From Rhizobiales bacterium dw_265 (GTDB taxonomy: Bacteria; Pseudomonadota; Alphaproteobacteria; Micropepsales; Micropepsaceae), in the NCBI GenBank assembly GCA_018449595.1, contig JAAVUU010000003.1, forward strand, positions 310,001-374,000: a stretch of 64,000 nucleotides of DNA, given 5' to 3'. Below are positions 12,359 to 62,257 of the stretch, in pieces (the first letter of the stretch is position 1; the number at the start of each line of letters is the position of its first letter). The notes under the pieces were generated by a model, which was not told the DNA's origin, searched no databases, and saw only the letters and a program-made list of their open reading frames with translations. The position numbers were made by a program, and so were the translations under genes.

Positions 12359-12524
12359 ATTCCCCGGAACGTCGGGTTGCGGCGTACCGGCTTAATCGAA
12401 GCGCGCTCTAATGCGGCCAACCCGTCGCGTGGGGTTTCCCCAATCTTCCGCGGGCCTGGCGGCCCTTGTGCAGACCGGGGCCCCTTTCCCACGCTCGGGC
12501 AGGACCGCGGCGGGGCCTTGCCAT

Positions 12525-12750: not shown

Positions 12751-13143
12751 ATGATCCTTATTCCCGACGAACTGCGACCGCGCCTGTTGGCGAATGGCAG
12801 CGATCCCGGCCATGACCATGTGCCGCTCATCAAGCTGTTCGATCCCACCGGGCCGGATGCTTGGCTTATCAGCGAAATCCAGCCCTACGACCCTGACGTT
12901 GTGTTCGGGCTTTCCTGTTGCGGCGGCGCGGTCTCGGTTGGGCCTTTCAACCTTGCCGAACTGCACGACCTGATCCGCAGTTATGGTTTCGAGTTACGCC
13001 GCGATGCGCAGTTTGCAGGCCGCCATCCGCTTTCGGTTTATGCCGAGGCCGCCCGCGCACAAGGCGCGATCACCGAAATCCCCACCCTGCTGGACGCCGC
13101 CGCCGTGCGGCTGGCGCTGCGCAAGAATGGAGGCGCGTTGTGA
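12751..13143 (+). CDS. DUF2958 domain protein
   Basis: 130 residues from ATG 12751 with GGAGG 5 nt upstream; a longer frame from 12466 runs through a terminator hairpin and is rejected. The DUF2958 pattern is clear: MILIPDELRPRLLANG at the start, LIKLFDPTGPDAWLISEI, and FAGRHPLSVYAEAARAQGAI near the end. The family is widespread in conjugative elements of proteobacteria but its role is unknown. It overlaps the next gene by 4 nt (GTGA). Confidence 0.85.
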   Translation: MILIPDELRPRLLANGSDPGHDHVPLIKLFDPTGPDAWLISEIQPYDPDVVFGLSCCGGAVSVGPFNLAELHDLIRSYGFELRRDAQFAGRHPLSVYAEAARAQGAITEIPTLLDAAAVRLALRKNGGAL

Positions 13144-15456: not shown

Positions 15457-15816
15457 CCATGCGACAGTTGGACGAGGACTCTGAATATCGACTTTGCATT
15501 TCGCCGCGCGCTGCTGGCGCCATGAGCGCCGCTGGGCCGGACGAAACCGTTGCCACGCGGACGAACGCAAATAGTTACCAAAATCTTTCGCGGATGATCG
15601 AGACAGCGCGAGAAGAAAATCCATCCCAATCCGCAAGTGCGATCTGTTCTGATTCATTTTGCGCTGCGCATCACGCGCGCCGTCTCACGCTGAGATGCGG
15701 AAGAAATGTGACAGATTCATTTTCCTCTTCCGCACACGGAGGAATTTTGCCAGCGTGTCAGACGGGGCGGGAGCGTTCCATCGTTCTCGCAAGTGTTTTG
15801 ACATGCGAGGTGAACA
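15457..15816. promoter_or_regulatory. Intergenic region before the TraF/transglycosylase operon
   Basis: 360 bp without a convincing gene; a 125-codon frame across it has no domain or fitting composition. It is more AT-rich than its neighbours. A consensus-like -35 (TTGACA, 15798-15803) lies just before the HTH gene but has no good -10. The ribosome site GAGGTG at 15807-15812 serves TTG 15817. It should contain the promoter of the downstream operon. Confidence 0.35.
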
Positions 15817-16110
15817 TTGGAAAAGGATCACGATAGATCGCCATATCTCAATACCGTGCAGGCCGCACATTATCTCAATATATCGCCCAAGACTCTGGAG
15901 AAGATGCGCGTCGTGGGCGGCGGCCCGAATTTTCGCAAGCATGGCGGACGTGTCGTCTACACCAGACCCGATCTCGATCTCTGGTCCGAGCGCCACAAGC
16001 AGGACATCACCCACTCGCCGCAGCTCCCGCATGATCCTCACGACGACGATCCGACTGACCCAACGACGCCGCCAAGATCGCAGACTTCGTGTCCCGAACC
16101 GTCGCTGTAA
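15817..16110 (+). CDS. Small HTH (excisionase-like) DNA-binding protein
   Basis: 97 residues from TTG 15817 (GAGGTG upstream); no ATG lies before the domain. Residues ~9-58 are an HTH_17/MerR-like winged helix (YLNTVQAAHYLNISPKTLEKMR, FRKHGGRVVYTRPDLDLW). The tail is rich in Pro, Asp and Thr. Proteins of this type regulate ICE transfer genes or act as excision factors. Its end overlaps the peptidase gene by 22 nt, so the two are cotranscribed. Confidence 0.75.
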   Translation: MEKDHDRSPYLNTVQAAHYLNISPKTLEKMRVVGGGPNFRKHGGRVVYTRPDLDLWSERHKQDITHSPQLPHDPHDDDPTDPTTPPRSQTSCPEPSL

Positions 16111-16580
16111 TCAGCGTCCTGGCGGTGCTGGCGCTCGCCATCGGCCCGCGTCCGCCACGGCTGATCTGGAACGCGACCGCGAGTGCGCCGGTGGGACTTT
16201 ACCGCGTGGAATATGGTAGCGCGCTCGCCAAAGGCTCGCTTGTTCTGGCCGTGCTGCCGCCGCGCCTTGCCGCTCTCGCCGCTACGCGCGGCTATCTTCC
16301 GGTGCATGTGCCGCTGGTCAAACCCATCGCGGCGTTGCCCGGCGACCGGGTTTGTCGTGAGGCGGAAGCCGTTTCCATCAATGGCATTCAAATCGCCCGA
16401 AGTCTCGCGCGGGACACCCATCTTCGACCGCTGCCGCGCTGGCAGGGCTGCATCACCCTTCATCCGGGCGAGGTGTTTCTGCTCAATCCGCACGTCGCGG
16501 ATTCCTTCGATGGCCGGTATTTCGGCGCGGTCCCGGCATCCTCCATCCTCGGAAATCTGGAGCCCATATGGACGCGCTGA
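16089..16580 (+). CDS. traF: TraF-type S26 signal peptidase (conjugal transfer)
   Basis: 163 residues from GTG 16089. An N-terminal membrane segment (VAVISVLAVLALAIG) precedes the S26 catalytic pattern: Ser32 in ASAPVGLY and Lys78 in the VKPIAALPGDRV box. TraF of RP4/Ti systems is the peptidase that matures and cyclises the TrbC pilin, and trbC is present at 27922. The C-terminal GHGDSRDSR-like box is replaced by DSFDGRYFGAV, as usual for TraF. The gene overlaps the lytic transglycosylase gene by 13 nt. Confidence 0.85.
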   Translation: MSRTVAVISVLAVLALAIGPRPPRLIWNATASAPVGLYRVEYGSALAKGSLVLAVLPPRLAALAATRGYLPVHVPLVKPIAALPGDRVCREAEAVSINGIQIARSLARDTHLRPLPRWQGCITLHPGEVFLLNPHVADSFDGRYFGAVPASSILGNLEPIWTR

Positions 16581-17218
16581 CGCTTTCGACAGTGTGTATT
16601 CTTTGCGCCACGTCGCCTGGGCCGCACCCAGAATCCGTGGCGCAATGGCAGCCTCTGATCGCCCAAGCGTCCCAGCAGTTCGCCGTGCCGCCCGCTTGGA
16701 TCGCGGGCGTGATGGGCGGCGAGAGCAGGGGCCATACCCATTTGAATGGCCGCCCGATCACATCACCGGCAGGCGCGATGGGGCTGATGCAGGTGATGCC
16801 GGATACCTATGCCGCGCTCCGGCAACGCTATCGCCTCGGCCCCGATCCCTACGATCCCCATGACAATATTGTTGCCGGAGCGGCGTATCTGCGCGAGCTT
16901 TATTGCCGCTATGGCTATCCCGCCATGTTCGCCGCCTACAATGCCGGACCCAAGCGGTACGAGGATTTCCTGTTGCGGGGCACGGCCTTGCCGCGCGCCA
17001 CGTTGGCCTATGTGGATACCATAGCACCGGGTCTGTCGGCGGCATTTGGCGGGAAGGGCGCGACCGCTTCATCCCCGCCGCGCGCGGCGGCAGACGGATT
17101 GTTCGTCGCTCTCACGATCGCATCCCCGGCATCGGGGCCGCCGCCGCAAGCCCCGTTATCGGCGTGGCGTTCGCCCGCATCCGGCCTTTTTGTGCGCCTG
17201 ACCGGCTTGGCACGATAG
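16568..17218 (+). CDS. Lytic transglycosylase (SLT, VirB1-like)
   Basis: 216 residues. The SLT domain spans ~30-145, with catalytic Glu52 in VMGGESRGH, then SPAGAMGLMQVMPDTYAAL and the AYNAG motif near residue 118. The start is hydrophobic but only weakly signal-peptide-like. The enzyme cuts peptidoglycan so the conjugative T4SS channel can cross the wall. It overlaps traF, forming an operon with it. The C-terminal ~60 residues are low-complexity Ala/Pro/Ser. Confidence 0.9.
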   Translation: MDALTLSTVCILCATSPGPHPESVAQWQPLIAQASQQFAVPPAWIAGVMGGESRGHTHLNGRPITSPAGAMGLMQVMPDTYAALRQRYRLGPDPYDPHDNIVAGAAYLRELYCRYGYPAMFAAYNAGPKRYEDFLLRGTALPRATLAYVDTIAPGLSAAFGGKGATASSPPRAAADGLFVALTIASPASGPPPQAPLSAWRSPASGLFVRLTGLAR

Positions 17219-17515
17219 CGCCTTTGCATGTCGTCTTCGCCGCGCGGACGCGGCGATGGTCGGTGTTGTTGCCGGGTTAACGGCCTTTCGCGGGCGGCCG
17301 ATCCTCAAGAAACTTGCATCGTTTGGGCATCAGGCCAGAGCGCGCGGGGGCGTCAAGCCCGCTCGCTTCCGCGCCCCAGGGGCTTGTGCAGCTCCGCGCC
17401 GCTATCGCGGGGCCGATGGCCGCCTTTGAGACCCCCGCCACCTGCGCCCCGGCTCTTTCACCCCACGATGCCGCGCATTGGGTGCGGCCTCGATCAACGC
17501 GAAAGGACTTCTCCC
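17219..17515. other. Intergenic region with hairpin
   Basis: 297 bp. A 7-bp perfect hairpin (17238-17244 with 17249-17255) shortly after the transglycosylase stop may be a weak terminator. The rest holds no gene I can support. It ends with the ribosome site GAAAGGA of the next small gene. Confidence 0.4.
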
Positions 17516-17710
17516 ATGAGCAACAAACCCTCCTTCATCGCCTATGCGGTGCGCCAGCGCGGCGAAAACGAAAAGGCCAACTGGACCGCCATCGGCGTGG
17601 CCTGGGCGCACAAGAAAGGCGGCGGCTTCAATGTCGAACTGGAAGCCACCCCGCTCGATGGTCGCATCGTCTTGATGCGGCCCACCGACGCCGAGGACGG
17701 CGACAGATAG
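17516..17710 (+). CDS. Small conserved ICE protein (64 aa)
   Basis: 64 residues from ATG 17516 with GAAAGGA 9 nt upstream. The sequence FIAYAVRQRGENEKANWTAI and a C-terminal GGGFNVELEATPLDGRIVLM pattern recur in small proteins next to transfer genes in rhizobial-type elements. The pattern resembles a short beta-rich fold similar to DUF736 proteins. Function unknown. It is followed by a strong terminator, so it is a single-gene unit or the end of one. Confidence 0.7.
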   Translation: MSNKPSFIAYAVRQRGENEKANWTAIGVAWAHKKGGGFNVELEATPLDGRIVLMRPTDAEDGDR

Positions 17711-17732
17711 CAGCCGACATCGCAATCCGGGA

Positions 17733-17778
17733 GCCGCGCCGCTCGCCCCACGGGGCGGGCGGTCGCGGCCTTTTCTTT
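17733..17778 (+). terminator. Hairpin terminator after the 64-aa gene
   Basis: A 17-bp interrupted stem: outer GCCGCG/CGCGGC (17733-17738, 17764-17769) and inner 11 bp (17739-17749, 17752-17762), followed by TTTTCTTT. The CTTTGTTGGGAAGGC tail is shared with 12342-12358, and a similar stem follows the methyltransferase gene. Confidence 0.8.
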
Positions 17779-17834
17779 GTTGGGAAGGCAAGGGGCTCCG
17801 CCCCTCACGCCGTCAAGCCGGGGGCCGTCGTGTC

Positions 17835-17979
17835 CCCGATTTTCTTTGAACGAGTCGGCACTGGACGCACCGCCTCCACAAAAATCAGGTGATCCCCCTC
17901 GCCAGCCCCCAGCTTGACCGCGCTACCCCCGGTCTCGCCGACGGGCAGGGGTTCAGCGCGGCTTTTGGGCGCTGAACCC
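17835..17979 (+). ncRNA. Structured leader RNA motif, copy 1 (upstream of DNA methyltransferase)
   Basis: This leader shares long stretches with 19717-19867: CCCCGATTTTCTTT, AACGAGTCGGC, CCGCCTCCA, and GGTCTCGCCGACGGGCA. Two stems can form. One pairs 17835-17843 with 17881-17889 (one mismatch). The other is an 11-bp stem, 17949-17959 with 17969-17979. The second ends 6 nt before the ribosome site GAGGA. A G-C pair here (17951/17977) replaces a T-A pair in copy 2, supporting a conserved RNA structure. The setting, 5' of DNA-acting genes in an ICE, resembles that reported for the radC RNA motif, but I cannot confirm membership. Confidence 0.6.
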
Positions 17980-17997
17980 TGCATCGAGGAATCTCCC

Positions 17998-18657
17998 ATG
18001 ACGACGATCACCACACCCCGCAACACGATATGCCATGACGATTGCACCAGTTTGATGCGCAGTTTCGATACCGCATCGGTGGATTTTATTTTGACCGACC
18101 CGCCTTATATCGTCCGCTATCGGGGGCGAGACGGGCGCAGCGTACACAATGACGACAATGGCCGATGGCTGTATCCGGCCTTTCACCAGATGTACCGCCT
18201 CCTCAAACCGGGCGGCTTCTGTGTCAGCTTTTACGGCTGGCACAGGGTCCACCTGTTTGCAGATGCGTGGCGTGCGGCAGGCTTCCGCATTGTCGGGCAC
18301 CTGGCATTTCGCAAGGACTATGCTTCTGGGTGCCGTTTTTTACGCTATCAGCATGAGACAGCGTATCTGCTGGCGAAGGGTGATCCCGTCCCGCCCGTTC
18401 AGCCCATTCCCGATATTATCGAGTTCGGCTACACCGGCAACAAGCTGCATCCGACCCAGAAACCCGTGCTGGCCTTGTCGCCGCTGATTGCTTGTTTTTC
18501 CAAGCCCGGCGACTTGGTTCTCGATCCCTTTTGCGGCTCCGGCTCGACCTTGGAGGCGGCGCACAGGCTGGGGCGGGATTGGCTGGGCATCGAGTTGAAC
18601 GCGGAGCATCACGCCACCGCAACCCAGCGGCTGCAATCGCTTCCGAAGGCCGCCTAG
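17998..18657 (+). CDS. Orphan DNA adenine/cytosine-N4 methyltransferase
   Basis: 219 residues from ATG 17998 (GAGGA 7 nt upstream). The catalytic motif IV, DPPY at residues 34-37, comes before the AdoMet-binding motif I (VLDPFCGSGSTLEA near residue 180), the order of the beta class. GNKLHPTQKPV lies between them. It methylates N6-adenine or N4-cytosine in DNA. No restriction endonuclease gene is near, so it is probably protective (anti-restriction during transfer) or epigenetic. A structured leader motif lies upstream and a terminator hairpin follows. Confidence 0.92.
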   Translation: MTTITTPRNTICHDDCTSLMRSFDTASVDFILTDPPYIVRYRGRDGRSVHNDDNGRWLYPAFHQMYRLLKPGGFCVSFYGWHRVHLFADAWRAAGFRIVGHLAFRKDYASGCRFLRYQHETAYLLAKGDPVPPVQPIPDIIEFGYTGNKLHPTQKPVLALSPLIACFSKPGDLVLDPFCGSGSTLEAAHRLGRDWLGIELNAEHHATATQRLQSLPKAA

Positions 18658-18683
18658 CGTCGTCATCACAATTCGCAGCCGCA

Positions 18684-18707
18684 CCGCTCGCCCCAAGGGG
18701 CGAGCGG
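18684..18707 (+). terminator. Terminator hairpin after the methyltransferase gene
   Basis: An 11-bp perfect stem (18684-18694 with 18697-18707) and a T-rich stretch 14 nt later. The stem sequence is nearly that of 17739-17762, so it is another copy of the ICE terminator type. It separates this gene from the convergent vapC. Confidence 0.7.
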
Positions 18708-18759
18708 TCGCGCTGCGCGCTTTCCTTTCTTGGGTCGATGGAGGACAGCTTTTCGGCTG

Positions 18760-19203
18760 CTATTCCGGCGGCAGACCCAAAAAGGGATCGAGCGCCGCGA
18801 CGCCCAGCGGGGCAAAATCTTTGAGATTGCGCGTCAGGACGGTGAGGCTGTTGCGCTGCGCCGTGGCGGCGATGATGATGTCGGCGAAGCCCGGCGATTG
18901 GCCCTGGCCGCGCGCCAGGTCGGATAGCTCGCCCGCGATCCGTGCGGTGGCCGTGTCGAAGGCCAGGATACGGTCGCCGTAAAGATGCAGGACGGCCTCC
19001 AGCCAAGCGGCGAGGTCTTCGCTCTTGCGGCTCGCGCCCTCGCGCCGGAGTTTGGCGATGCCGTCCTCGATTTCCGCGACGGTCACCGCCGAGAGAAACA
19101 GATTCTCAGATTGCGCGTCCATCCAGGCGACGAGTCCGGCCGGCGCGGGCCGCGCCGGCGCCGCCGACGAGATCACATTCGTGTCGATCAAATAGCCCGT
19201 CAT
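18760..19203 (-). CDS. PIN-domain toxin (VapC/FitB type)
   Basis: 147 residues spanning a complete PIN domain: Asp7 in YLIDTNV, Glu44 in TVAEIEDGI, and the later acidic site FADIIIAATA. VapC/FitB proteins are RNases, often cutting tRNA or rRNA, held inactive by a partner. Its ATG directly follows the TGA of the antitoxin gene, so the two are coupled. A toxin-antitoxin module inside the ICE probably stabilises it. Confidence 0.92.
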   Translation of the reverse strand: MTGYLIDTNVISSAAPARPAPAGLVAWMDAQSENLFLSAVTVAEIEDGIAKLRREGASRKSEDLAAWLEAVLHLYGDRILAFDTATARIAGELSDLARGQGQSPGFADIIIAATAQRNSLTVLTRNLKDFAPLGVAALDPFLGLPPE

Positions 19204-19446
19204 TCAGAGGTCGGTGGCGCGTGGGGGTTTGCTGTTACGGGCCGGTAGATCGTCGGGCGATAGCGGCGCGGCCGTCAGAAAGCGACCGAAGGAGGGGACA
19301 TGCGACAGCCGCTCCCATTCCTCAAAGCCCAGGATCACCGCTTCCCGCTTGCCGTGCCGGGTGATGATTGCAGGCTTGCCATGAACCGCATCGTCCACCA
19401 CCGCAGATAGGCTCGCTTTGGCGTCCCGAAGCTGAATTTCCCGCAT
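19204..19446 (-). CDS. Phd/YefM-type antitoxin
   Basis: 80 residues. The N-terminus MREIQLRDAKASLSAVVDDA followed by HGKREAVILGFEEWERLS is the Phd/YefM DNA-binding fold. The C-terminal ~30 residues, Pro-rich, should wrap the toxin. It is upstream of, and coupled to, the PIN toxin, the usual antitoxin-first order. It probably represses the operon through the palindrome at 19469-19483. Confidence 0.9.
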   Translation of the reverse strand: MREIQLRDAKASLSAVVDDAVHGKPAIITRHGKREAVILGFEEWERLSHVPSFGRFLTAAPLSPDDLPARNSKPPRATDL

Positions 19447-19468
19447 GAAACTGGTCCTCGCAGAGCCG

Positions 19469-19483
19469 TGACTACTGTAGTCA
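19469..19483 (-). promoter_or_regulatory. Promoter/operator of the toxin-antitoxin operon
   Basis: A perfect palindrome, TGACTAC-T-GTAGTCA, 23 bp before the antitoxin ATG. It overlaps the likely minus-strand promoter (TTGCCA, 17 nt, TATATG). This is the expected place for autorepression by the antitoxin. Confidence 0.65.
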
Positions 19484-19561
19484 TATAATCCGATTGCCCA
19501 GGGCTGGCAAGTCCAGCCGTCCGTCCGTCAGGCATGGGCCACCCCGCGCGCAGCGCGGCCG

Positions 19562-19672
19562 GGCTGTCGTGAACGAAGCCCCGCTCTGGATGCGCGGATC
19601 TCCGCCTGGCGGCTTCCATCCCTGGTGGAAGAGATGATGCGCTCCGCACTTTGTTATTTGAAGGAAGGCTTG
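19562..19672. repeat. Non-coding repeat module B (partner of 12219-12358)
   Basis: Shares GGCTGTCGtGaACGaAGCCC, GATCTCCGCC, TTCCATCCCTGG and the CTTTGTT...GAAGGAAGGC tail with 12219-12358. It sits in the 442-bp gene-free stretch 19,447-19,888, directly ahead of leader motif copy 2. Confidence 0.5.
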
Positions 19673-19716
19673 GGGGCGCTGCCCCCCGGCGCGGTCAAGG
19701 GGGGCGCGGCGGTCTC

Positions 19717-19867
19717 CCCGATTTTCTTTTAACGAGTCGGCGCTGGGCGCGCCGCCTCCAGAAAATCGGGTGATACCCCTCCGCCGCTGACCCCGTTGAC
19801 CTTTGCACCCCCCGGTCTCGCCGACGGGCAAGGTTTCAGCGCGGGCGCTGTGCTTGCGCTGAAACCT
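19717..19867 (+). ncRNA. Structured leader RNA motif, copy 2 (upstream of DUF932 gene)
   Basis: A perfect 10-bp stem (19717-19726 with 19761-19770) is followed by the conserved GGTCTCGCCGACGGGCA and a perfect 12-bp stem (19831-19842 with 19856-19867, 13-nt loop). The ribosome site AAAGGAG follows within 10 nt. Sequence and both helices match copy 1, with one compensatory pair change. This indicates a cis-acting RNA element rather than a chance repeat. Confidence 0.65.
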
Positions 19868-19888
19868 AACCCTTAAAGGAGACTTGTT

Positions 19889-21073
19889 ATGGACATTCAG
19901 AACCAGCAGAGCGTGAACGGTGCCTATCGCGTGGACATTACCAAGGGCCAGCGCATCGGGCGCGTTTCGTCCGAATGGTGGACACGGCCCGACGATGAAA
20001 AGTATCTCAGCCTTTCGGACCTTTATGCGGACGTGAAAGCCCGCGCCGACCGCGCCACCACCCGCACCGTGGAAAGCCGGGAAATCAGAGTCGAAGCCAC
20101 CCGCGACGATGCCGAGCGGCTGGAATTGATCGTGCCGGGACGCGAGCAGCCCGTTTCCGCGACCCATTGGAGTTTCGGGCAATTGTGCAGTCTGGTGGGC
20201 GCACCTTCCACTTACATGCGCCAGCTTCCCGCACCCTTGGCCGGGATCAACCTGCAATATGGTCTTTCCAATCATCGCGCCGAACTGGTCAAGACGCTGG
20301 AAGCCGAGGACGGCAATGTGGAATTGCGCGCCGTCACCGGCCCCGATTACGGCCGCATCTGGGACCATGAACTTGTCGCCGCCGTGCAGAAGATCGCCGG
20401 CAACGGCAACGGGGACACCCGCTGGAAGGTGCCGGGCGTCCTGAATTGGGCGGACATGACCTACAATCCGTTCGTGGACGTGAGCAAGGAAACCACCACC
20501 TTGTACGCCAGCGACCGGGACGTATTCCTGTTCCTGGTGGACGACACCAATCCCATCGAGGCGGGTTGCCTCGCGGATGGATCGCCGGACCTTTATTTCC
20601 GGGGCTTCTATGCTTGGAACAGCGAAGTGGGCAGCAAGACGCTTGGCATCGCGTCGTTCTATCTTCGCGCCGTGTGCCAGAACCGCAACCTTTGGGGCAC
20701 GGAGAATTTCGAGCAGATCACTATCCGGCACTCGAAATTCGCCGGGAACCGCTTCGCCCAGGAAGCCGCACCGGCCCTGACCAGCTTCGCCAATTCCAGC
20801 CCCAAGGCGTTCCTGGCGGGTATCCAATCGGCGCGGGAACTGATCGTCGCCCGCACCGACGAGGACCGGGACAGCTTCCTGCGCAAGCGGGGTTTCTCGA
20901 AAGGCGAGACGGCCAAGATCGTGGAAACCGTCTTGAACGAGGAAGGCAGGAAGCCGGAAAGCATTTTCGACTTCGTGCAGGGCATCACCGCCCTGGCCCG
21001 CAACAAGGCCCATCAGGACGCCCGGCTTGAACTGGAAGGCAGGGCCAAGAAGCTGATGGAAGCCGCCATCTGA
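19889..21073 (+). CDS. DUF932 (phage/plasmid-like) protein
   Basis: 394 residues, with the DUF932 pattern along most of the length: WSFGQLCSLVGAPSTYMRQLP, ELRAVTGPDYGRIWDHELV, TLYASDRDVFLFLVDDTNPI, YLRAVCQNRNLWG. The family is common on plasmids, phages and ICEs. Its function is not established. It has its own structured leader and an attenuator-like hairpin after it, then two small genes. A 647-codon antisense frame over it is a composition shadow. Confidence 0.88.
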   Translation: MDIQNQQSVNGAYRVDITKGQRIGRVSSEWWTRPDDEKYLSLSDLYADVKARADRATTRTVESREIRVEATRDDAERLELIVPGREQPVSATHWSFGQLCSLVGAPSTYMRQLPAPLAGINLQYGLSNHRAELVKTLEAEDGNVELRAVTGPDYGRIWDHELVAAVQKIAGNGNGDTRWKVPGVLNWADMTYNPFVDVSKETTTLYASDRDVFLFLVDDTNPIEAGCLADGSPDLYFRGFYAWNSEVGSKTLGIASFYLRAVCQNRNLWGTENFEQITIRHSKFAGNRFAQEAAPALTSFANSSPKAFLAGIQSARELIVARTDEDRDSFLRKRGFSKGETAKIVETVLNEEGRKPESIFDFVQGITALARNKAHQDARLELEGRAKKLMEAAI

Positions 21074-21085
21074 CGCCACCGGAGA

Positions 21086-21118
21086 GCCGCGCAGCCCGTC
21101 ATGGGTTGCGCGGCTTTT
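21086..21118 (+). terminator. Hairpin between DUF932 and the 107-aa gene
   Basis: An 8-bp stem (21086-21093 with 21107-21114) extended by an inner CCC/GGG, followed by TTTT. It may be a partial terminator that lowers expression of the next gene, whose ribosome site begins 9 nt later. Confidence 0.6.
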
Positions 21119-21139
21119 CCCCTTATCAGGAGCAAAACG

Positions 21140-21463
21140 ATGACGAACGACGATCAACGGAAAGAAGCATTTCGCCTTATCCGCGAAGCCGAAGAAGCGG
21201 GCGACCGCATGAAGACCGCACCGCTCTACATTCACGGCGGTTATGACGAGGAAGGCGACCCAATCCCCGAAGAAAATATCGGCCCTTGGGACGCCTTTGA
21301 AGAGGCAATCCGGCGGGTGGAGGAAAACGAAACGGCTGTGCGCATCCTCATGGCGCAGGGCCGCACCGAAATCCACTCCCGCCGTTTGTTGAAAGTGTTG
21401 GAAGGGCTGAGAGCGCCGTTCCATCCTGAAACCGATCCCGCTTGCGGTCCCGACACCGATTGA
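21140..21463 (+). CDS. Conserved hypothetical ICE protein (107 aa)
   Basis: 107 residues from ATG 21140 with CAGGAG 7 nt upstream. It is acidic and helix-rich (EAFRLIREAEEAGDRMKTAP, DAFEEAIRRVEENETAVRIL), with no known domain or membrane segment. It follows the DUF932 gene and ends just before a strong terminator. I cannot assign a function. Confidence 0.6.
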   Translation: MTNDDQRKEAFRLIREAEEAGDRMKTAPLYIHGGYDEEGDPIPEENIGPWDAFEEAIRRVEENETAVRILMAQGRTEIHSRRLLKVLEGLRAPFHPETDPACGPDTD

Positions 21464-21475
21464 GGTGCAACTTTC

Positions 21476-21498
21476 GGGGGCTTCGGCCCCCTTTTTTT
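21476..21498 (+). terminator. Rho-independent terminator
   Basis: GGGGGC-TTCG-GCCCCC (21476-21491) followed by seven T. It is a canonical UUCG tetraloop terminator closing the DUF932 operon. Confidence 0.93.
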
Positions 21499-21622
21499 CG
21501 ACTGGCCGCGCCGCGCTCGCGTCATCGTCCCATCGCTGTGGATGGGCCGGTGCAGGGGCTGCTCAGGCGGTCCCATTGTCCGGGACAGATCGGGCCGCCT
21601 CAAGGGACGATGGGGCCCCACC

Positions 21623-21685
21623 ATTTTTTTCGGCGCACAGGCCCTGGCGCTTGCGCGTTCACCACCGCGCCGCGCCGAAAAAAAT
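21623..21685. repeat. 14-bp perfect inverted repeat, possible bidirectional terminator or oriT part
   Basis: 21623-21636 pairs perfectly with 21672-21685 (ATTTTTTTCGGCGC and its complement) around a 35-nt GC-rich loop. T-runs on both strands would also let it terminate both ways. The surrounding 331-bp gap (21,464-21,794) has no gene. It also has a TGGGGCCCCA palindrome at 21611-21620. Confidence 0.6.
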
Positions 21686-21794
21686 CGTGACCCCCATCGC
21701 CGCTAAAGCGGTTCGCGGGCAAGCCCGCGATCCCTTGACCCGACCCGATCCGCCCCAGGAACCACCGCCGTCCTTTCACAAACAGGAGACGGCG

Positions 21795-21953
21795 ATGACG
21801 ATATACGATCATATTCAACAGTTGCGGGCAGAGCTTTCGGCAAGCTGCGATGCGAAGGAAATCCAGCGGATCGAAGCGCAGTTGAAGGCTGCTTTGATCG
21901 AACAAGCGTTGCTCGAAAAGGCGTTCGACGCTTGGTTTCCAGACCTCGAATGA
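21795..21953 (+). CDS. Small coiled-coil-like protein (52 aa)
   Basis: 52 residues from ATG 21795 with AGGAG 6 nt upstream. It is almost wholly helical with a heptad-like pattern (LRAELSASCDAKEIQRIEAQ, LKAALIEQALLEKAF). No family is recognised. Its position just ahead of the relaxase could fit an accessory factor for relaxosome assembly, but that is a guess. Confidence 0.5.
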   Translation: MTIYDHIQQLRAELSASCDAKEIQRIEAQLKAALIEQALLEKAFDAWFPDLE

Positions 21954-22283
21954 GGCCGGAAATCGTGTCGGGAGCGGCGCTTTTCGGGCGTCGCTCCCGG
22001 CGATTTCAGCGGATCGGACGGCGTGGCGGCGCGGGTGCTATCGCGGACCTCGGCAGCGTGGCCGGGGAGACGAGGCGTGCGGAGGCTGAAAAAATTTTCG
22101 CGCGTGGGATTAGGACAAGATAAAGCCCGCGCCCACGGGGCGCGGGAAGTGCTTTGTCTGCACATCGGAAATTCGTGGGCGGTGCCCGTATCGGCGTGGG
22201 CGCACGCGCGAACGTAAATCGTGATGCCATTGCATTGGCGGTGAAGTACGATCGTTGATGCGGGGGCCGATGGACGTAAGGAC
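21954..22283. other. Gene-free region before the relaxase; candidate oriT or promoter
   Basis: 330 bp. It contains a 9-bp hairpin (22126-22134 with 22138-22146) and an imperfect palindrome GCCATTGCATTGGC near 22229. Antisense frames here lack any domain. The stretch just upstream of a MOBP relaxase is a usual place for oriT, but no nick-site consensus could be assigned. Confidence 0.3.
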
Positions 22284-24266
22284 ATGGCACGCGAAAACGA
22301 ATTTGAACCCGACCTCGGCAGGATTGGCGCGCGCCAACCAAAGCCGCCCCGCTCCTTCAAGCGGGCGGTGACGAAGGCGACGGCGCGGGCGGGCGGCTTT
22401 GCCAAGCCGGGCGGTGGCAAGCGCAGCAGCTTCACCGGCGCCCGCATCGGCCGCGGCTCCGGCGCCGGCCGTGTTCTGGCATCACGCGGACCCCAGGCCG
22501 GGCTTCGGTCCCGCCGCGTGATCGTCAAGGCGCATCTGGTCCAGCTCAAGGGCAGCACCGGCGCGGTCATGGCGCATCTGCGTTACCTGCAACGGGACGG
22601 CGTGACGCGCCAGGGCGAACCCGGCGAACTTTATGACGCCGAGCAGGACCGTGCGAATGGGAAAGAATTTCTGGAACGCAGCGATGGCGACCGCCACCAG
22701 TTCCGCTTCGTGTTCTCGCCTGACGATGGCGCCGAATATGACGACCTCAAGGATCTGACACGGCGGTTCATGGAGCGGGTGGAGAGCGATCTGGGAACCA
22801 AGCTCGATTGGGTCGCGGTGGATCATTACAACACCGGCCATCCCCACAGCCATATCATCGTCCGGGGCAAGGACGACACCGGCAAAGACCTCATCATCGC
22901 CCGCGAATATATCTCGCACGGGATGCGGGAACGGGCGCAGGAGATCGTCACCCTCGACCTGGGGCCGCGCGATGCGGTTCAGATCGATCGCAGTCTCAAG
23001 TCCGAGATGGAGCAGGAGCGGTTCACCAGCCTGGACCGCCGGTTGCGGCAGGAGGTGGGCGAGGACGGCATCCTGCGATCCGGCACCGATCCGGGGGACG
23101 GCCTGCGCCAGACGCTACGGGCCGGGCGCTTGCAGAAACTTCAGCGGCTGGGTCTGGCCGACGAGATAGCCCCAGGACAATGGCGGCTGGCCGACGACAT
23201 GGAGCCGGTGCTGCGGCGCATGGGCGAGCGCGGCGACATCCTCAAGGCCCTCCATTACGAAATCCAGCGCCAGGGGATTCCGCGCGGGGCCGCCGATTAC
23301 GCGATTTATGACGCGACCGACCCGAACGCCAAGCCCATCATCGGCAAGCTGCTGGTGCGCGGTCTGTCCGACGAGTTGAAGGACCGCCATTATCTGATCG
23401 TGGACGGGGTGGACGGGCGCAGCCATTACGTTGACATCGGGCGCGGCAATGGGACGGCGCCGATCCCAGATGGCAGCATCATCGCCATCACGCCAAAGCG
23501 CCTGGAGGCGCGCGCGGTGGATCATACCGTCGCCGAGATCGCGTCGGCGCATGGCGGGCGGTATAGCGCCGATATTCACATGCAGCACGACAAGACCGTG
23601 CGCCGTGAGTTTGCCGAAACCCATGTCCGGCGGCTGGAGGCTATGCGCAAGCTGTCCCAGCTTGCCGAACGGGAGCCTGACGGGACATGGATCATTGCGC
23701 CGGATCATGTGGCGCGGGCGGTATCTTTTGAGCGGCAGCAGGCGCGCAACTACCCGGTCAGGGTCGAAACGCTGTCGGTCTTGCCGATAGACCGCCAGAT
23801 CGGGACCGAGGGAGCAACCTGGCTGGACCGGGAATTGATGGCGCGGCAGCCCACGCCGATCCGCGATGCCGGATTCGGCCGGGAGGCCCGCGAGGCGCTG
23901 GTGCGCCGCCAGCAATGGCTGGTGGAGCAGGATTTGGCCCGCCAGGATCAGGACCAGATCGTCTATCGCGCCAATATGCTGTCGGTGCTGCGGCGGCGGG
24001 AATTGGCCCGCGCCGCCGGGCAGCTATCGGCGGAACTGGGGCTTGCGTATCGGGAAGCCAAGTCCGGCGACCGGATCGAGGGTGTCTATGCCCGCAAGCT
24101 CGACCTGGCGAGCGGCAGTTTCGCTGTTATTGAGAAATCCCGCCAATTTACACTGGTGCCGTGGCGTCCGGTGCTGGAGCGCAGCATGGGCAAAACCGTG
24201 GCGGGTATTGCGCGGGGCGACGCGATCTCTTGGACCATCGGCCGGCAGCGCGGGCCGTCAATTTGA
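22284..24266 (+). CDS. VirD2-like relaxase (MOBP, DUF3363)
   Basis: 660 residues. The relaxase core is residues ~75-200, with a candidate catalytic Tyr101 in LRYLQRDG and the metal-binding motif HPHSH (186-190) in NTGHPHSHIIVRG. The remainder is the DUF3363 region typical of ICE relaxases. The first 70 residues are basic and probably unstructured. The enzyme nicks oriT, stays bound to the 5' end and leads the strand into the T4SS through TraG. It is followed after 206 bp by traG. Confidence 0.93.
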   Translation: MARENEFEPDLGRIGARQPKPPRSFKRAVTKATARAGGFAKPGGGKRSSFTGARIGRGSGAGRVLASRGPQAGLRSRRVIVKAHLVQLKGSTGAVMAHLRYLQRDGVTRQGEPGELYDAEQDRANGKEFLERSDGDRHQFRFVFSPDDGAEYDDLKDLTRRFMERVESDLGTKLDWVAVDHYNTGHPHSHIIVRGKDDTGKDLIIAREYISHGMRERAQEIVTLDLGPRDAVQIDRSLKSEMEQERFTSLDRRLRQEVGEDGILRSGTDPGDGLRQTLRAGRLQKLQRLGLADEIAPGQWRLADDMEPVLRRMGERGDILKALHYEIQRQGIPRGAADYAIYDATDPNAKPIIGKLLVRGLSDELKDRHYLIVDGVDGRSHYVDIGRGNGTAPIPDGSIIAITPKRLEARAVDHTVAEIASAHGGRYSADIHMQHDKTVRREFAETHVRRLEAMRKLSQLAEREPDGTWIIAPDHVARAVSFERQQARNYPVRVETLSVLPIDRQIGTEGATWLDRELMARQPTPIRDAGFGREAREALVRRQQWLVEQDLARQDQDQIVYRANMLSVLRRRELARAAGQLSAELGLAYREAKSGDRIEGVYARKLDLASGSFAVIEKSRQFTLVPWRPVLERSMGKTVAGIARGDAISWTIGRQRGPSI

Positions 24267-24472
24267 CAGCGTGATGCACTGACCGCCGAAGCATTGTTCG
24301 TCATGGGCGCTGGAGCATCGCAGTAACTCTTCGCTAACTTATTTGGCGAGCCTTTGCGCGCAGCGAAGTAAAGAACAGCAAAGAAGATCAAAGAATCTAC
24401 CGCGAATAGCGGGTTCTCAATTCCGCATGTGCGGCGGAAGGTGATTCGTGTTGAGACAACTCGGATCGTTCC

Positions 24473-26506
24473 ATGACGCCCACCAAAATTCTAATCGGCC
24501 AGATCGCGGTCGTATTAGCCATCGTGATCGTGGGCGTGTGGTGGGCGACGCAATGGACGGCACTGGAGCTTGGCTATCAATGGCGGCTGGGTGCGCCGTG
24601 GTTCGTCGCGCTGCACTATCCGGTCTATTTCCCCTGGCGCCTGTTTGAGTGGTGGTATGCGTTTGACGCCTACGCGCCGACGCTGTTCAATCGCGCCGGC
24701 ACGATGGCGGCGGCCAGCGGCTTTGTCGGGATAGCTGCCGCGATCATCGGTTCGCTGTGGCGGGCACGTCAGACGAAGCGGGTCACTACCTACGGTTCGT
24801 CGCGCTGGGCCACCACCCAGGAGATCCAGCGCGCCGGCCTGTTCCGCCCGTCGGGCGTTTTCCTGGGCCAGCGCGGCAACAGGTTTTTGCGCCATGACGG
24901 TCCCGAACACGCGATAGCGTTTGCCCCAACGCGTTCGGGCAAGGGTGTGGGGCTCTGTATCCCGACGTTGCTGTCATGGACCGGCAGCGCCGTCGTTCAC
25001 GACATCAAGGGCGAAAACTGGCAGATCACTGCTGGCTGGCGCGCGCTGTTCTCCCATTGCCTGCTGTTCAACCCCACCGATCCACGTTCCGCCAAGTACA
25101 ATCCGCTGCTGGAAGTCCGCAAGGGACCGAACGAGGTCCGCGATGTTCAGAACATCGCCGACATCCTGGTCGATCCCGAAGGGGCGCTGGAACGCCGCTC
25201 GCATTGGGAGAAGACCAGTCACAGTCTGCTGGTCGGGGCGATATTGCATGTGCTGTACGCCGAGGAAGAAAAGACCCTCGCGCGGGTCGCCAGCTTCCTG
25301 TCCGATCCACGCCGCTCCTTCGAGCATACCCTGCGCGACATGATGGCGACCAACCATCTGGGCACCAAAGATACGCCCCTGGTTCACCCGGTCGTCGCCA
25401 GCGCCGCCCGCGAGGTCTTGAACAAGTCCGAGAATGAGCGGTCGGGCGTGCTGTCCACCGCCATGTCGTTCCTGGGCCTGTACCGTGACCCCATCGTGGC
25501 AGCGACCACGGCGGCCTGCGACTGGCGCATTGCCGATCTGGTGGACGCCAAGCAGCCGGTCTCGCTGTATCTGGTGATCCCACCGTCCGACATCTCCCGG
25601 ACCAAGCCGCTGGTGCGGCTGGTCTTGAACCAGATTGGCCGCCGACTCACCGAGAAGCTGGAAGGCGATCCCGCCAAGAGCCGCAAGCATCATTTGTTGC
25701 TGATGCTCGACGAATTCCCGGCGCTGGGTCGGCTGGATTTCTTCGAGACGGCGCTGGCGTTCATGGCGGGCTACGGCATCCGCGCCTATCTGATCGCGCA
25801 GTCCTTGAACCAAGTGTCCAAGGCATACGGCGAGAACAATTCCATTCTCGACAATTGCCATGTCCGTGTCGCGTTCAGCAGCAACGACGAGCGCACCGCC
25901 AAGCGGATTTCCGATGCCCTTGGCACCGCCACCGAACTTCGCGCCCAGCGCAACTACGCCGGTCACCGTCTCTCGCCCTGGCTGGGCCATGTGATGGTCA
26001 GCCGCCAGGAGACAGCCCGTCCGCTGCTGACGCCGGGTGAAGTCATGCAACTGCCGCCCAAGGATGAACTGGTGCTGATCTCCGGGCTGGCGCCGATCCG
26101 CGCCAAAAAGGTGCGGTACTACGAGGATCGGAATTTCATCGAACGCATCCTGCCGGCGCCGCCGCTGGTGGATGGCGGCTATCCCGATTGCCCGCCGCCG
26201 CGCCCCAATGACTGGAGCGGGCAGGTGCGCGGTCTCGACGCTCGCCTGCAACAGCAGCAAGCCGATGGCGCCGCAGGGGCCGACGACGAGGAAGGCGGCT
26301 TGCAGCAGCAGCGCCATCCCGGTCTGCCGGAAGAAGCCAAAGCGCGGCCGCAGCGGGCGACGCAGCCGACACTCTCGCTGTTCGATGATGACGATTCCGC
26401 CACCGATACCCGCGCCCCGCAGCGTGGACGCCAGGCTGTTGCCCGCGCCCGCGCCATGAACGAAGGCGACCGCCGCGACCGCGACGGTCTTCTTCCGGCC
26501 TTTTGA
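24473..26506 (+). CDS. traG: Type IV coupling protein TraG (VirD4 family)
   Basis: 677 residues. Two N-terminal membrane segments (about 8-28 and 80-96), then the Walker A motif in APTRSGKGVG near residue 150, the LLLMLDEFPALGRL Walker B near 415, and the AQSLNQVSKAYG region. The C-terminal ~100 residues are Gln/Arg-rich and variable. The hexameric ATPase brings the relaxase-DNA complex to the channel. The order traG - RHH gene - trbB is the standard one for this ICE class. Confidence 0.96.
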   Translation: MTPTKILIGQIAVVLAIVIVGVWWATQWTALELGYQWRLGAPWFVALHYPVYFPWRLFEWWYAFDAYAPTLFNRAGTMAAASGFVGIAAAIIGSLWRARQTKRVTTYGSSRWATTQEIQRAGLFRPSGVFLGQRGNRFLRHDGPEHAIAFAPTRSGKGVGLCIPTLLSWTGSAVVHDIKGENWQITAGWRALFSHCLLFNPTDPRSAKYNPLLEVRKGPNEVRDVQNIADILVDPEGALERRSHWEKTSHSLLVGAILHVLYAEEEKTLARVASFLSDPRRSFEHTLRDMMATNHLGTKDTPLVHPVVASAAREVLNKSENERSGVLSTAMSFLGLYRDPIVAATTAACDWRIADLVDAKQPVSLYLVIPPSDISRTKPLVRLVLNQIGRRLTEKLEGDPAKSRKHHLLLMLDEFPALGRLDFFETALAFMAGYGIRAYLIAQSLNQVSKAYGENNSILDNCHVRVAFSSNDERTAKRISDALGTATELRAQRNYAGHRLSPWLGHVMVSRQETARPLLTPGEVMQLPPKDELVLISGLAPIRAKKVRYYEDRNFIERILPAPPLVDGGYPDCPPPRPNDWSGQVRGLDARLQQQQADGAAGADDEEGGLQQQRHPGLPEEAKARPQRATQPTLSLFDDDDSATDTRAPQRGRQAVARARAMNEGDRRDRDGLLPAF

Positions 26507-61181: not shown

Positions 61182-61400
61182 ATGCGCACCTGGCAGGTCG
61201 AGCGCCGCAAGCGCACACGGCATCTGATCGAACTCGGCGGCCTCGTCGTCAAGGCCGGGATCGTGGACCTGACCGGCGACGACCGCGCCATGATCTACGG
61301 CGCGCTACTCTGGATGGCCGACAAGCTCAAAAGCGAGCAGGCCGAACACGCACGGGCGCTCTGGACCGCGAAGGGAAAGCGGGTGTTCGAGGATGGCTAG
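61182..61400 (+). CDS. traD: Conjugal transfer protein TraD (Ti type)
   Basis: 72 residues from ATG 61182, directly after the traC stop; a GTG at 61116 would extend it by 22 basic residues. RRKRTRHLIELGGLVVKAGI followed by DDRAMIYGALLWMAD is the TraD/TraC_RP4-like hallmark. It is an accessory factor for DNA processing. It ends overlapping the tail of the AbiEii toxin gene. Confidence 0.85.
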   Translation: MRTWQVERRKRTRHLIELGGLVVKAGIVDLTGDDRAMIYGALLWMADKLKSEQAEHARALWTAKGKRVFEDG

Positions 61401-62257
61401 ACTCCAAACCGTTCCCGCATTTCCCCGGCCTTCGCCCATTCGTCGCCGGGTATCAGGTCGATCAGTTCGTTCATCACCCTGACGAAGGTGGCCTTGAGCG
61501 TTTCGTCGTTCAGCGCCTTGGCGCGATCTGTCTGAAGCAGCGGACGCATATCGGTGAAGAAGGTCGGGTTGACGAGTTTCTGGAACATGCGCTGCTGCGC
61601 CTCAGCCCTCGAAATCGCTTGCTCTGCCTTTTCGAGGTAGAGCCGGAAACATTCGACGATCCGGGCCGTGTTCAACCCCTCGAACACAGTGAGCGCGTGA
61701 TCGAGATCGAACAGATCACGGCCCTTGTTGCGTTGAAGCAAAGCCCGCAACTTGGTCGCCAGCATTTCCTCCCGCGAGAAAGTCGGGATCGCGGCCTCGC
61801 CGGCGAACCACGGATTTTCGATGCCGAACGGAATCTCGATGGGCGGATCGTAGGCTTCCCGCTCGCGTGTGTTGATTTCGATCTTGAGCCTTATCGGGCT
61901 CGGCGAATCTCTGTCTTCGGCTTCGACCGTGTATTTGAGCTTGGGTGCAACGGGGCTTTGATCGAAGCGCGGCTTGCCCAGCCACGGATCAAGAATGTCA
62001 TGCAGGCGATCCAATAGCGGTCTGATGGGACCGGCGGTCGTCCGGACAAGGTCGATGTCCTCTGAATAGCGCAGTGGGGCAGGGAAATGCAGCTTGTTGA
62101 GCGCCGTGCCGCCACGGAAGCGCAGTTCGCCGCGCAGGAACGGATCGGAGAAGATGGCGACAAGCGCACGGCTGATGATGAGGTCCTGCTCGACCTGCCG
62201 CTGGCTTGCCCACGGCGCGACGCGGCTCCAGGCGGTGATATAGTCTTGCGGGATCAT
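61397..62257 (-). CDS. AbiEii-type nucleotidyltransferase toxin
   Basis: 286 residues. The AbiEii/AbiGii domain has the nucleotidyltransferase signature FRGGTALNKLHF and YSEDIDLV, then an IRLKIEINTRE strand with the third acidic residue, and later SREEMLATKLRALLQRNKGRDLFDL. Such enzymes are bacteriostatic NTP transferases of type IV toxin-antitoxin systems and can abort phage infection. It is coupled to its antitoxin by a 4-nt overlap. Confidence 0.93.
   Translation of the reverse strand: MIPQDYITAWSRVAPWASQRQVEQDLIISRALVAIFSDPFLRGELRFRGGTALNKLHFPAPLRYSEDIDLVRTTAGPIRPLLDRLHDILDPWLGKPRFDQSPVAPKLKYTVEAEDRDSPSPIRLKIEINTREREAYDPPIEIPFGIENPWFAGEAAIPTFSREEMLATKLRALLQRNKGRDLFDLDHALTVFEGLNTARIVECFRLYLEKAEQAISRAEAQQRMFQKLVNPTFFTDMRPLLQTDRAKALNDETLKATFVRVMNELIDLIPGDEWAKAGEMRERFGV

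Follow-up and report, generated by a model that had tools for sequence, protein, structure and literature searches.

The 64,000-nucleotide window analysed here (contig JAAVUU010000003.1, positions 310,001–374,000, of Rhizobiales bacterium dw_265) contains two copies of one element, which occupy the leaders (17787–17998 and 19667–19889) of a DNA methyltransferase gene and a DUF932-like gene. The element probably represents a new sequence family of Frpo-like single-stranded-DNA promoters (or priming sites) that would allow establishment genes to be expressed from DNA arriving in the recipient; it would form a repeated single-stranded-DNA control element in the leading region of an alphaproteobacterial integrative and conjugative element (ICE). 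This reading is based on a covarying fold, a mismatch bias that marks the template strand in one class of instances (class A), a position on the leading side of relaxase genes, co-direction with those genes, and the content of the genes downstream.

The element is made up of helices P1–P7 and spans approximately 200 nt, starting at ~17787 and ~19667 with the hairpin P1, followed by the long-range helix P2, P4/P5 and the core hairpin P6. The initial annotation, covering the 3′ half, had described two helices common to the leaders; these are present, as part of this longer structure. In copy 1 (P1–P6 at 17787–17946, plus strand, the minus strand presumably being the folded one), P1 spans 17792–17804, P2 pairs GTCAAGC (17812–17818) with GCTTGAC (17912–17918), P4 pairs GGGGGC (17820–17825) with GCCCCC (17905–17910), P5 pairs 17834–17843 with 17880–17889, and P6 occupies 17928–17945. 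In copy 2 (P1–P6 at 19667–19829, with the same strand assignment), P1 spans 19672–19686, P2 pairs GGTCAA (19693–19698) with TTGACC (19796–19801), P4 pairs 19706–19712 with 19781–19787, P5 pairs 19716–19725 with 19762–19770, and P6 occupies 19811–19828. The two leaders are 82% identical over ~145 nt and share, as had been proposed, a final stem, P7, formed by GGGTTCAGCGC/GCGCTGAACCC (17949–17959 with 17969–17979) in copy 1 and by GGTTTCAGCGC/GCGCTGAAACC (19832–19842 with 19856–19866) in copy 2. The third pair of this stem is indeed compensatory, being G-C (17951–17977) in copy 1 and T-A (19834–19864) in copy 2. P7 (17949–17979 and 19832–19866, both plus strand, assigned from sequence and, for copy 1, also from P7 covariation) is the last stem before each gene, ending 6 nt (copy 1) and 9 nt (copy 2) before ribosome-site-like sequences at 17986–17991 and 19876–19882, which precede the ATG codons at 17998 and 19889; the earlier statement that both leaders end just 5′ of the ribosome site thus holds.

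Relatives were collected through a 21-nt core, CCCCGGTCTCGCCGACGGGCA, which occurs in at least 117 stretches in a collection of 84,980 species genomes. The resulting 136 core instances (133 distinct, the two in the window included) were sorted by simple text patterns into class A (71), class B (34), class C (6) and an unsorted remainder (25), into which copy 1 of the window fell before being placed in class A by hand. In the consensus, written in sense letters, P1 is the hairpin GGGGCNCNGCCCC, P2 a long-range helix around GGGCAAGGG/CCCTTGCCC, P3 a variable hairpin, P4 CCGGGGCGG/CCGCCCCGG, and P5 CCCCGACCT...AGGTCGGG, with the conserved strand GGGTGATCCCCCT alongside. The core hairpin P6 reads CCC-G-GTC-TCGCC-GAC-GGG and is invariant among instances chosen by the core word, with GCC/GGC in plasmid pCB4 and CTC/GAG in plasmid pDE2; P7 is the last stem before the ribosome site.

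This fold is conserved and covaries far above chance. Over 52 pairs and 48 sequences, 88.6% of pairs are standard, compared with 79.0% in shuffled and 34–50% in slid alignments; 28 pairs change on both sides, including 9 of the 11 pairs of P4, and the further covarying examples that the initial annotation had called for are numerous. A covariance-model search, proposed there with both copies, was carried out with a model, R1, built from 21 short sequences of the 48, cut at the core end and deliberately excluding both window copies; R1 recovered copy 2 at 85.7 bits (E = 9.5e-15) and copy 1 at 62.8 bits (E = 1.8e-10), the only two clear copies in the genome, where the next-best matches score 23.7 and 22.1 bits. 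For P2, the window itself holds both GTCAAGC/GCTTGAC and GGTCAA/TTGACC.

Letters 5′ of P1 and 5′ of the core also vary together: CTTG accompanies AC in 49 instances against one with other letters, and CTAA, CTAG, CTCA, CAAG or CTAT accompanies TA in 42 against 12 with other letters (one being GCACG). The two window copies represent one type each (17789–17792 with 17924–17925; 19669–19672 with 19807–19808), the switching letters standing at the same places in relatives. A tertiary contact or pseudoknot is a possible explanation of this switch.

The strand that folds can be read from the mismatches tolerated within helices. In an RNA helix, a change from G-C to A-U passes through G-U, which appears as G-T in DNA letters; if the opposite strand is the one folded, the tolerated mismatch is T-G on that strand and therefore A-C on the sense strand. 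The comparison was confined to pairs that emerged from folding of both strands and reached 70% pairing or more, and used class-A set 1 (77 class-A or A-like instances, minus 3 near a contig end and 4 without a script-found 5′ hairpin, with 50 of 70 kept at 88% identity), class-A set 2 (71 of 80 kept, then 47 at 85% identity), a tool alignment of 48 of the 50 sequences (L109 and L140 omitted) and tree sets of 65 of 70 and 68 of 71 sequences (97% identity). In P1–P6, A-C exceeded G-T by 41 cells to 14 (50 sequences; bootstrap P = 0.0004), by 38 to 17 (47 sequences; bootstrap 0 of 5,000) and, in the tool alignment, by 43 to 22, or 40 to 7 at an 80% threshold; A-C led in each of the three class-A alignments whichever of the four thresholds was applied, and events counted on trees gave 42/13 and 39/16 (binomial 1e-4 and 0.003). 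Class B pointed weakly in the same direction (13/8 tree events, 7/4 cells), and class C, at 2/1 cells from six sequences, is too small a sample for this test.

Two RNA references behaved differently. The radC motif (RF01754), a structured RNA that precedes DNA-related genes on proteobacterial mobile elements, gave A-C/G-T counts of 6/17 (11 non-redundant sequences), 5/18 (events) and 25/50 (39 sequences) in the same pipeline. Its set had been gathered by a short motif in 34 loci, most from a single genus, to give 39 sequences, of which 21 entered the tree and 11 remained at 90% identity. Eight tRNAs gave 0/9. Drift in unpaired columns took no single direction (G-to-A/C-to-T rates of 0.070/0.070, 0.106/0.065 and 0.045/0.069 in class A and 0.090/0.065 in class B), so that the class-A bias is not explained by drift; in radC it leaned to C-to-T (0.064/0.099 and 0.104/0.133). 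As A-C on the sense strand is T-G on the template, it is apparently the template strand whose folding is maintained, and P1–P6 look selected as a template-strand fold. P7 differs, being neutral or G-T-leaning in class A (11/11 at the 70% threshold, 13/29 at 60%) and A-C-leaning in class B (13/6); an RNA role in the transcript is possible for P7 alone. The post-transcriptional control that the initial annotation had inferred for these leaders is accordingly not upheld for P1–P6, whose A-C drift on the sense strand is opposite to the behaviour of RNA and of the radC motif, and whose position and strand fit the strand transferred in conjugation instead.

Predicted folding of the individual copies is consistent with this assignment. 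Folded as minus-strand DNA, copy 1 has a z-score of -4.18 and holds 0.84 of the tested consensus pairs, and copy 2 a z-score of -4.42 with 0.78, neither being matched by any of 200 shuffles; folded as sense RNA, copy 1 reaches -2.97, holds 0.48 of the pairs and misfolds in P5, and copy 2 reaches -3.62 with 0.74. Averaged over 50 sequences, the fraction of consensus pairs held is 0.77 for minus DNA, 0.73 for minus RNA, 0.68 for sense RNA and 0.66 for sense DNA.

The element is tied to the leading side of relaxase genes. In a survey of 87 core sites (at most one mismatch) in 50 genomes, with loci picked by hand for contig size and spread and a relaxase table of 45 rows on element-bearing contigs entered by hand, 31 elements had a PF03432 relaxase gene within 10 kb (27 genomes), and every one of them lies on its strand and upstream of it; the same holds for 45 of 47 elements when the distance is extended to 30 kb and for 46 of 51 at 60 kb. 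MobA/MobL relaxases were found in 7 of the 15 genomes examined for them and share a contig with the element in two, one (G748) where the relaxase gene is co-directional and downstream, and another (G764) where it is the gene already counted as an exception among the PF03432 rows. In the window, the relaxase gene (PF03432 plus DUF3363 by domain matches; 22284–24266, plus strand) follows both copies, and ~160 nt before it lies a nic-like sequence, CTTTATCTTG (22116–22125), with an adjoining inverted repeat (22126–22146), on the minus strand. This site (22116–22146) is the predicted oriT and start of the transferred strand; with a nic at 22116–22125, the minus strand would lead the transfer, running leftward through the DUF932-like and methyltransferase genes, for which it is the template.

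Nic-like sites were recognised by sequences that we take to be nic consensuses. The pattern TATC[CT]TG, chosen after shared k-mers had been seen, occurs on the same strand in 8 of 15 other DUF3363-type relaxase loci (3 of 18 regions, having no relaxase of this type, were omitted), on the opposite strand in one, apparently inside a gene, and in neither orientation in six, against a background of 0.046 per 930 nt and strand. In pDE2, three copies point towards a relaxase gene at least 12 kb away, with TATCCTG beside a mobC-like gene on the copies' template strand, and three copies each in the Caulobacter plasmids pCB4 and FWC26 p2 likewise have the mobC-adjacent TATCCTG strand as template; each plasmid has other matches to the RP4-type pattern as well, the 26-kb pDE2 stretch for instance showing six matches. 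Elements in Nitrosospira and Defluviicoccus plasmids are co-directional with relaxase genes. The MOBQ plasmids pAgK84, pSR6 and pSINME02, which hold class-B-like partial matches only and were not found by R1, carry a TAAGTGCGCCCT-type nic on the element's template strand in all three cases, the leading-side position in pSR6 requiring that a record labelled linear be circular.

The genes that follow the element agree with the earlier suggestion that it precedes ICE genes acting on DNA. A downstream gene of at least 60 amino acids with a ribosome-site-like sequence was found for 121 of the 136 instances, at a median core-to-start distance of 73 nt (64–79 nt for the 5–95% range). Clustered and named from one representative each, these comprise 52 ParB-like genes (with weak scores to ParB hidden Markov models), 16 DUF932 genes (PF06067), 15 DUF932-like genes of the type in the window, 11 N4/N6 methyltransferase genes (the window's included), 7 ArdA, 7 ArdC, 2 DUF2958 and 11 others, so that ParB-like, DUF932-type, methyltransferase, ArdA or ArdC genes account for 108 of the 121. 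In the window, copy 1 precedes an N4/N6 DNA methyltransferase gene (17998–18657, plus strand; PF01555, and NCBIfam NF010253 above its cut-off). The gene after copy 2 (19889–21073, plus strand) encodes a DUF932-like establishment protein, a member of the cluster of 15, itself included. The protein had no Pfam match at E ≤ 1e-3 and no NCBIfam match, and the DUF932 label given before rests on its appearance and on the annotation of relatives.

Core-bearing records, judged by title among the matches listed, are mostly alphaproteobacterial, many of them metagenome-assembled genomes; Beta- and Gammaproteobacteria contribute some, and Solidesulfovibrio and Myxococcales are each named on one record. 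A BLAST relative of copy 1 occurs in 12 of 96 genomes of the order, all of one genus, a 20-nt core in 5 of 385 genomes in an even draw of the class, and an R1 match at E ≤ 1e-4 in 17 of 398 genomes of the phylum, 16 of them in the same class (the source genome being counted each time). A viral home was rejected, the core occurring in only two stretches of IMG/VR (contigs L143 and L144); the copy in L143 lies 5′ of a gene that appears ParB-like by eye, and this contig may be a mis-sorted conjugative element. At a site in pAgK84 (L165:14480–14545) and similar sites in Sinorhizobium/Agrobacterium plasmids, a class-B-like centre with a different core stands 5′ of clusters with a ParB-like gene; the family probably reaches beyond what the core word shows.

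The proposed mechanism follows the order of events in conjugation. The minus strand, template of both genes, would enter the recipient first, and each copy would fold into P1–P6 within it. The recipient's transcription (or priming) machinery would recognise this fold, and the adjacent gene, for the methyltransferase or the DUF932-like protein, would be expressed from single-stranded DNA before or during second-strand synthesis. The transcript would bear P7 directly before its ribosome site, and conversion to duplex would remove the fold and switch expression off.

Single-stranded-DNA promoters as a kind are known, those tested being of plasmids F and ColIb-P9, as the passages cited here describe; for RP4, zygotic induction of leading genes is reported with no such promoters identified in the account given (PMC7314908). 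In plasmid F, two Frpo copies that are 92% identical lie on either side of flmAB, at a distance of ~5 kb from each other, and drive early recipient expression (PMC9849209), and a methyltransferase under such control is described as transcribed from the folded single strand until duplex conversion ends it (PMC7736820). Leading-region anti-defence genes are encoded on the T-strand, the relaxase gene typically lying in the lagging region (Samuel et al., PMC11541004). The element resembles Frpo/ssi of F and ColIb-P9 in that it is folded and repeated, precedes leading-region genes and has the transferred strand for its template; leading-region position with that template (31 of 31, 45 of 47, and nic-like sites at a predicted oriT) and a conserved fold of the transferred strand (covariation, class-A strand bias and folds) are both features of a single-stranded-DNA promoter. 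The leading region of F itself carries methylase, antirestriction, SSB, ParB family, psiB and DUF932 genes in one direction, together with two copies of its own repeat (L175:10411–10622 and 15801–16012), the first preceding ssb and the second the gene that stands in front of DUF932; from their positions these would be Frpo2 and Frpo1. As in F, where flmAB is placed between the copies (PMC9849209), the two window copies, 1.9 kb apart, flank a toxin–antitoxin locus, here a PIN toxin and Phd/YefM antitoxin pair (18760–19446, minus strand; domain matches). Unlike Frpo, the element lacks consensus -10/-35 boxes in a linear scan with the Escherichia coli consensus and R1 has no match in the F leading region at E ≤ 1; unlike Frpo/ssi, it has a multi-helix, G+C-rich fold (P1–P6) and other hosts, mainly Alphaproteobacteria. 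Frpo homologues were rejected as a positive control for the strand test as too uniform, the plasmid matches listed being mostly from E. coli at 80–100% identity.

Other explanations account for parts of these data. The P1–P7 fold could be a structured mRNA leader, controlling translation or stability of ICE genes from the 5′ untranslated region as the radC motif may do. The near-constant core-to-start spacing (median 73 nt over 121 instances), the placement of P7 directly 5′ of the ribosome site, the even A-C/G-T count of class-A P7 (11/11 at the 70% threshold) and the ability of copy 2 to fold nearly as well as sense RNA (0.74 of tested pairs, z = -3.62) all suit a leader; the excess of A-C over G-T in P1–P6, where the radC motif has the reverse, and the tie to the leading side of relaxase genes do not, and we regard this explanation as unlikely. 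Transcription of the minus strand across the leaders into a structured antisense RNA would yield the same A-C bias, and the minus strand does have lower z-scores with RNA energies (mean -2.60 versus -1.95). It would leave the leading-region position unexplained; simple scans returned no promoter-like site in 17400–22300 and no minus-strand terminator-like site inside the two leaders, no Rfam family matches, and an antisense RNA is quite improbable.

A role chiefly in priming, in which the folded transferred strand starts complementary-strand synthesis (by primase or an RNA polymerase primer) rather than gene expression, would suit strand and leading position equally well, and Frpo/ssi transcripts are described as doubling as primers (PMC7736820). 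Priming alone requires neither a gene after each copy at near-constant spacing nor several copies per element, and as the main function it seems improbable, more so than an mRNA leader. The invariant 20-nt core and the repeated copies would also befit a duplex or cruciform DNA signal bound by protein, for example by the ParB-like proteins often encoded downstream; such a signal predicts A-C approximately equal to G-T and gives no reason for covariation of the full helices, and it is the least probable of the four.

Several points weigh against a Frpo-like single-stranded-DNA promoter, beginning with the fact that its promoter activity is something that we infer, as are the oriT position, the in vivo fold in the transferred strand, and the roles of P7 and of duplex conversion. 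A priming role fits strand and place just as well, as noted. Frpo carries -10/-35 boxes (PMC9849209), and in Frpo/ssi promoters these are rebuilt in the fold. For the element itself such sigma-70 boxes were rejected, as a scan confined to the E. coli consensus in linear sequence gave no sigma-70-type promoter match in 17400–22300. Two of the 47 elements within 30 kb of a relaxase gene are exceptions, 36 of the 87 have no PF03432 relaxase within 60 kb, and many surveyed ICEs have one common backbone (some pairs with identical spacings) and are not independent. In pCB4 and FWC26 p2, one of four copies adjoins the nic-like site in the opposite orientation (the copies in question being L167:20000–20159, plus strand, and L170:10297–10455, minus strand). 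On its own, class B gives a weak signal that lacks significance (7/4 cells, bootstrap 0.24) and turns into a tie or a reversal at the 90% threshold. Drift, being mixed, could account for part of the contrast between element and radC motif. That the minus strand folds at lower energy was rejected as strong evidence, this being mostly a matter of composition (DNA, -4.9 kcal/mol real versus -3.8 shuffled, p = 0.03; with RNA parameters the strand gap is -8.8 versus -6.1 kcal/mol, p = 8e-5).

A more specific version of the promoter reading, which we put forward tentatively and with slightly less than even confidence, is a new and widespread class of single-stranded-DNA gene switch, a riboswitch-like, multi-helix fold of the transferred strand that lacks sigma-70 boxes. 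During conjugation of ICEs and plasmids across Proteobacteria, this switch would activate genes for anti-restriction, methylation and partition in the recipient; second-strand synthesis would then erase it, and the P7 mRNA hairpin would form the 5′ end of the transcript. This sequence and fold family, its hosts and the absence of standard boxes are new to the sources covered: no Rfam family matches the element (window at gathering score; 16000–25000 at E ≤ 10; nine related loci at E ≤ 1, giving tRNAs only), and open-access full text yielded, among the matches listed, no recognised description of it, most subscription journals and supplements lying outside that search. If the reading is true, a family searchable by sequence and structure makes ICE anti-defence expression before double-strandedness directly testable, and the element could mark leading regions and the transfer strand in many genomes. 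The A-C versus G-T mismatch test is applicable to other mobile-element 'RNA motifs', such as STAXI, for telling single-stranded DNA from RNA.

Two such motifs invite comparison. Like the radC motif, the element is structured and stands upstream of mobile-element genes. It differs in sequence and fold, with no cross-match, and in its variation, which is RNA-like in radC while the element has 41 A-C to 14 G-T. The identity with radC that had been raised for comparison is not borne out, RF01754 having no match at E ≤ 10 in 16000–25000 and R1 none at E ≤ 1 in 12 radC loci; radC as a parent family was rejected as well, its best match in the source genome reaching 17 bits (E = 0.92) on another contig (C18). 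The radC loci themselves (L145–L148, L176–L205) show RNA-like sense-strand variation, often with several copies per genome. The STAXI motif (RF01728) occurs near SSB, antirestriction and integrase genes, in which the element is like it, and consists of tandem pseudoknots in Enterobacteriales, in which it is not; STAXI had no match in the window at the gathering score, nor in 16000–25000 at E ≤ 10. Its authors weighed an action as single-stranded DNA and then, in the passage concerned, judged RNA more likely (PMC2864571). STAXI was rejected as an equivalent of Frpo and so as a control, not being found in plasmid F.

Further features lie around the two copies. A candidate third copy, partial or degenerate and comprising the P4–P5 part only (12423–12493, plus strand; R1 23.7 bits, E = 0.0039 in the window and 0.25 genome-wide), precedes a DUF2958 gene (12751–13143, plus strand; PF11171, E = 1.2e-24). 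Between the DUF932-like and relaxase genes, 5′ of a 52-residue open reading frame, an inverted repeat at 21602–21704 (strand unassigned) forms a hairpin of high stability (z = -5.47 when folded as minus-strand DNA), with arms rich in A/T and a layout like P4/P5. The resemblance is in shape alone, R1 having no match there at E ≤ 10, so that a divergent further copy is possible, though not established; assignment to Rfam MIR7510 was rejected, the long hairpin scoring far below the family cut-off. Near the window end lies an AbiEii-type toxin gene (61397–62257, minus strand).

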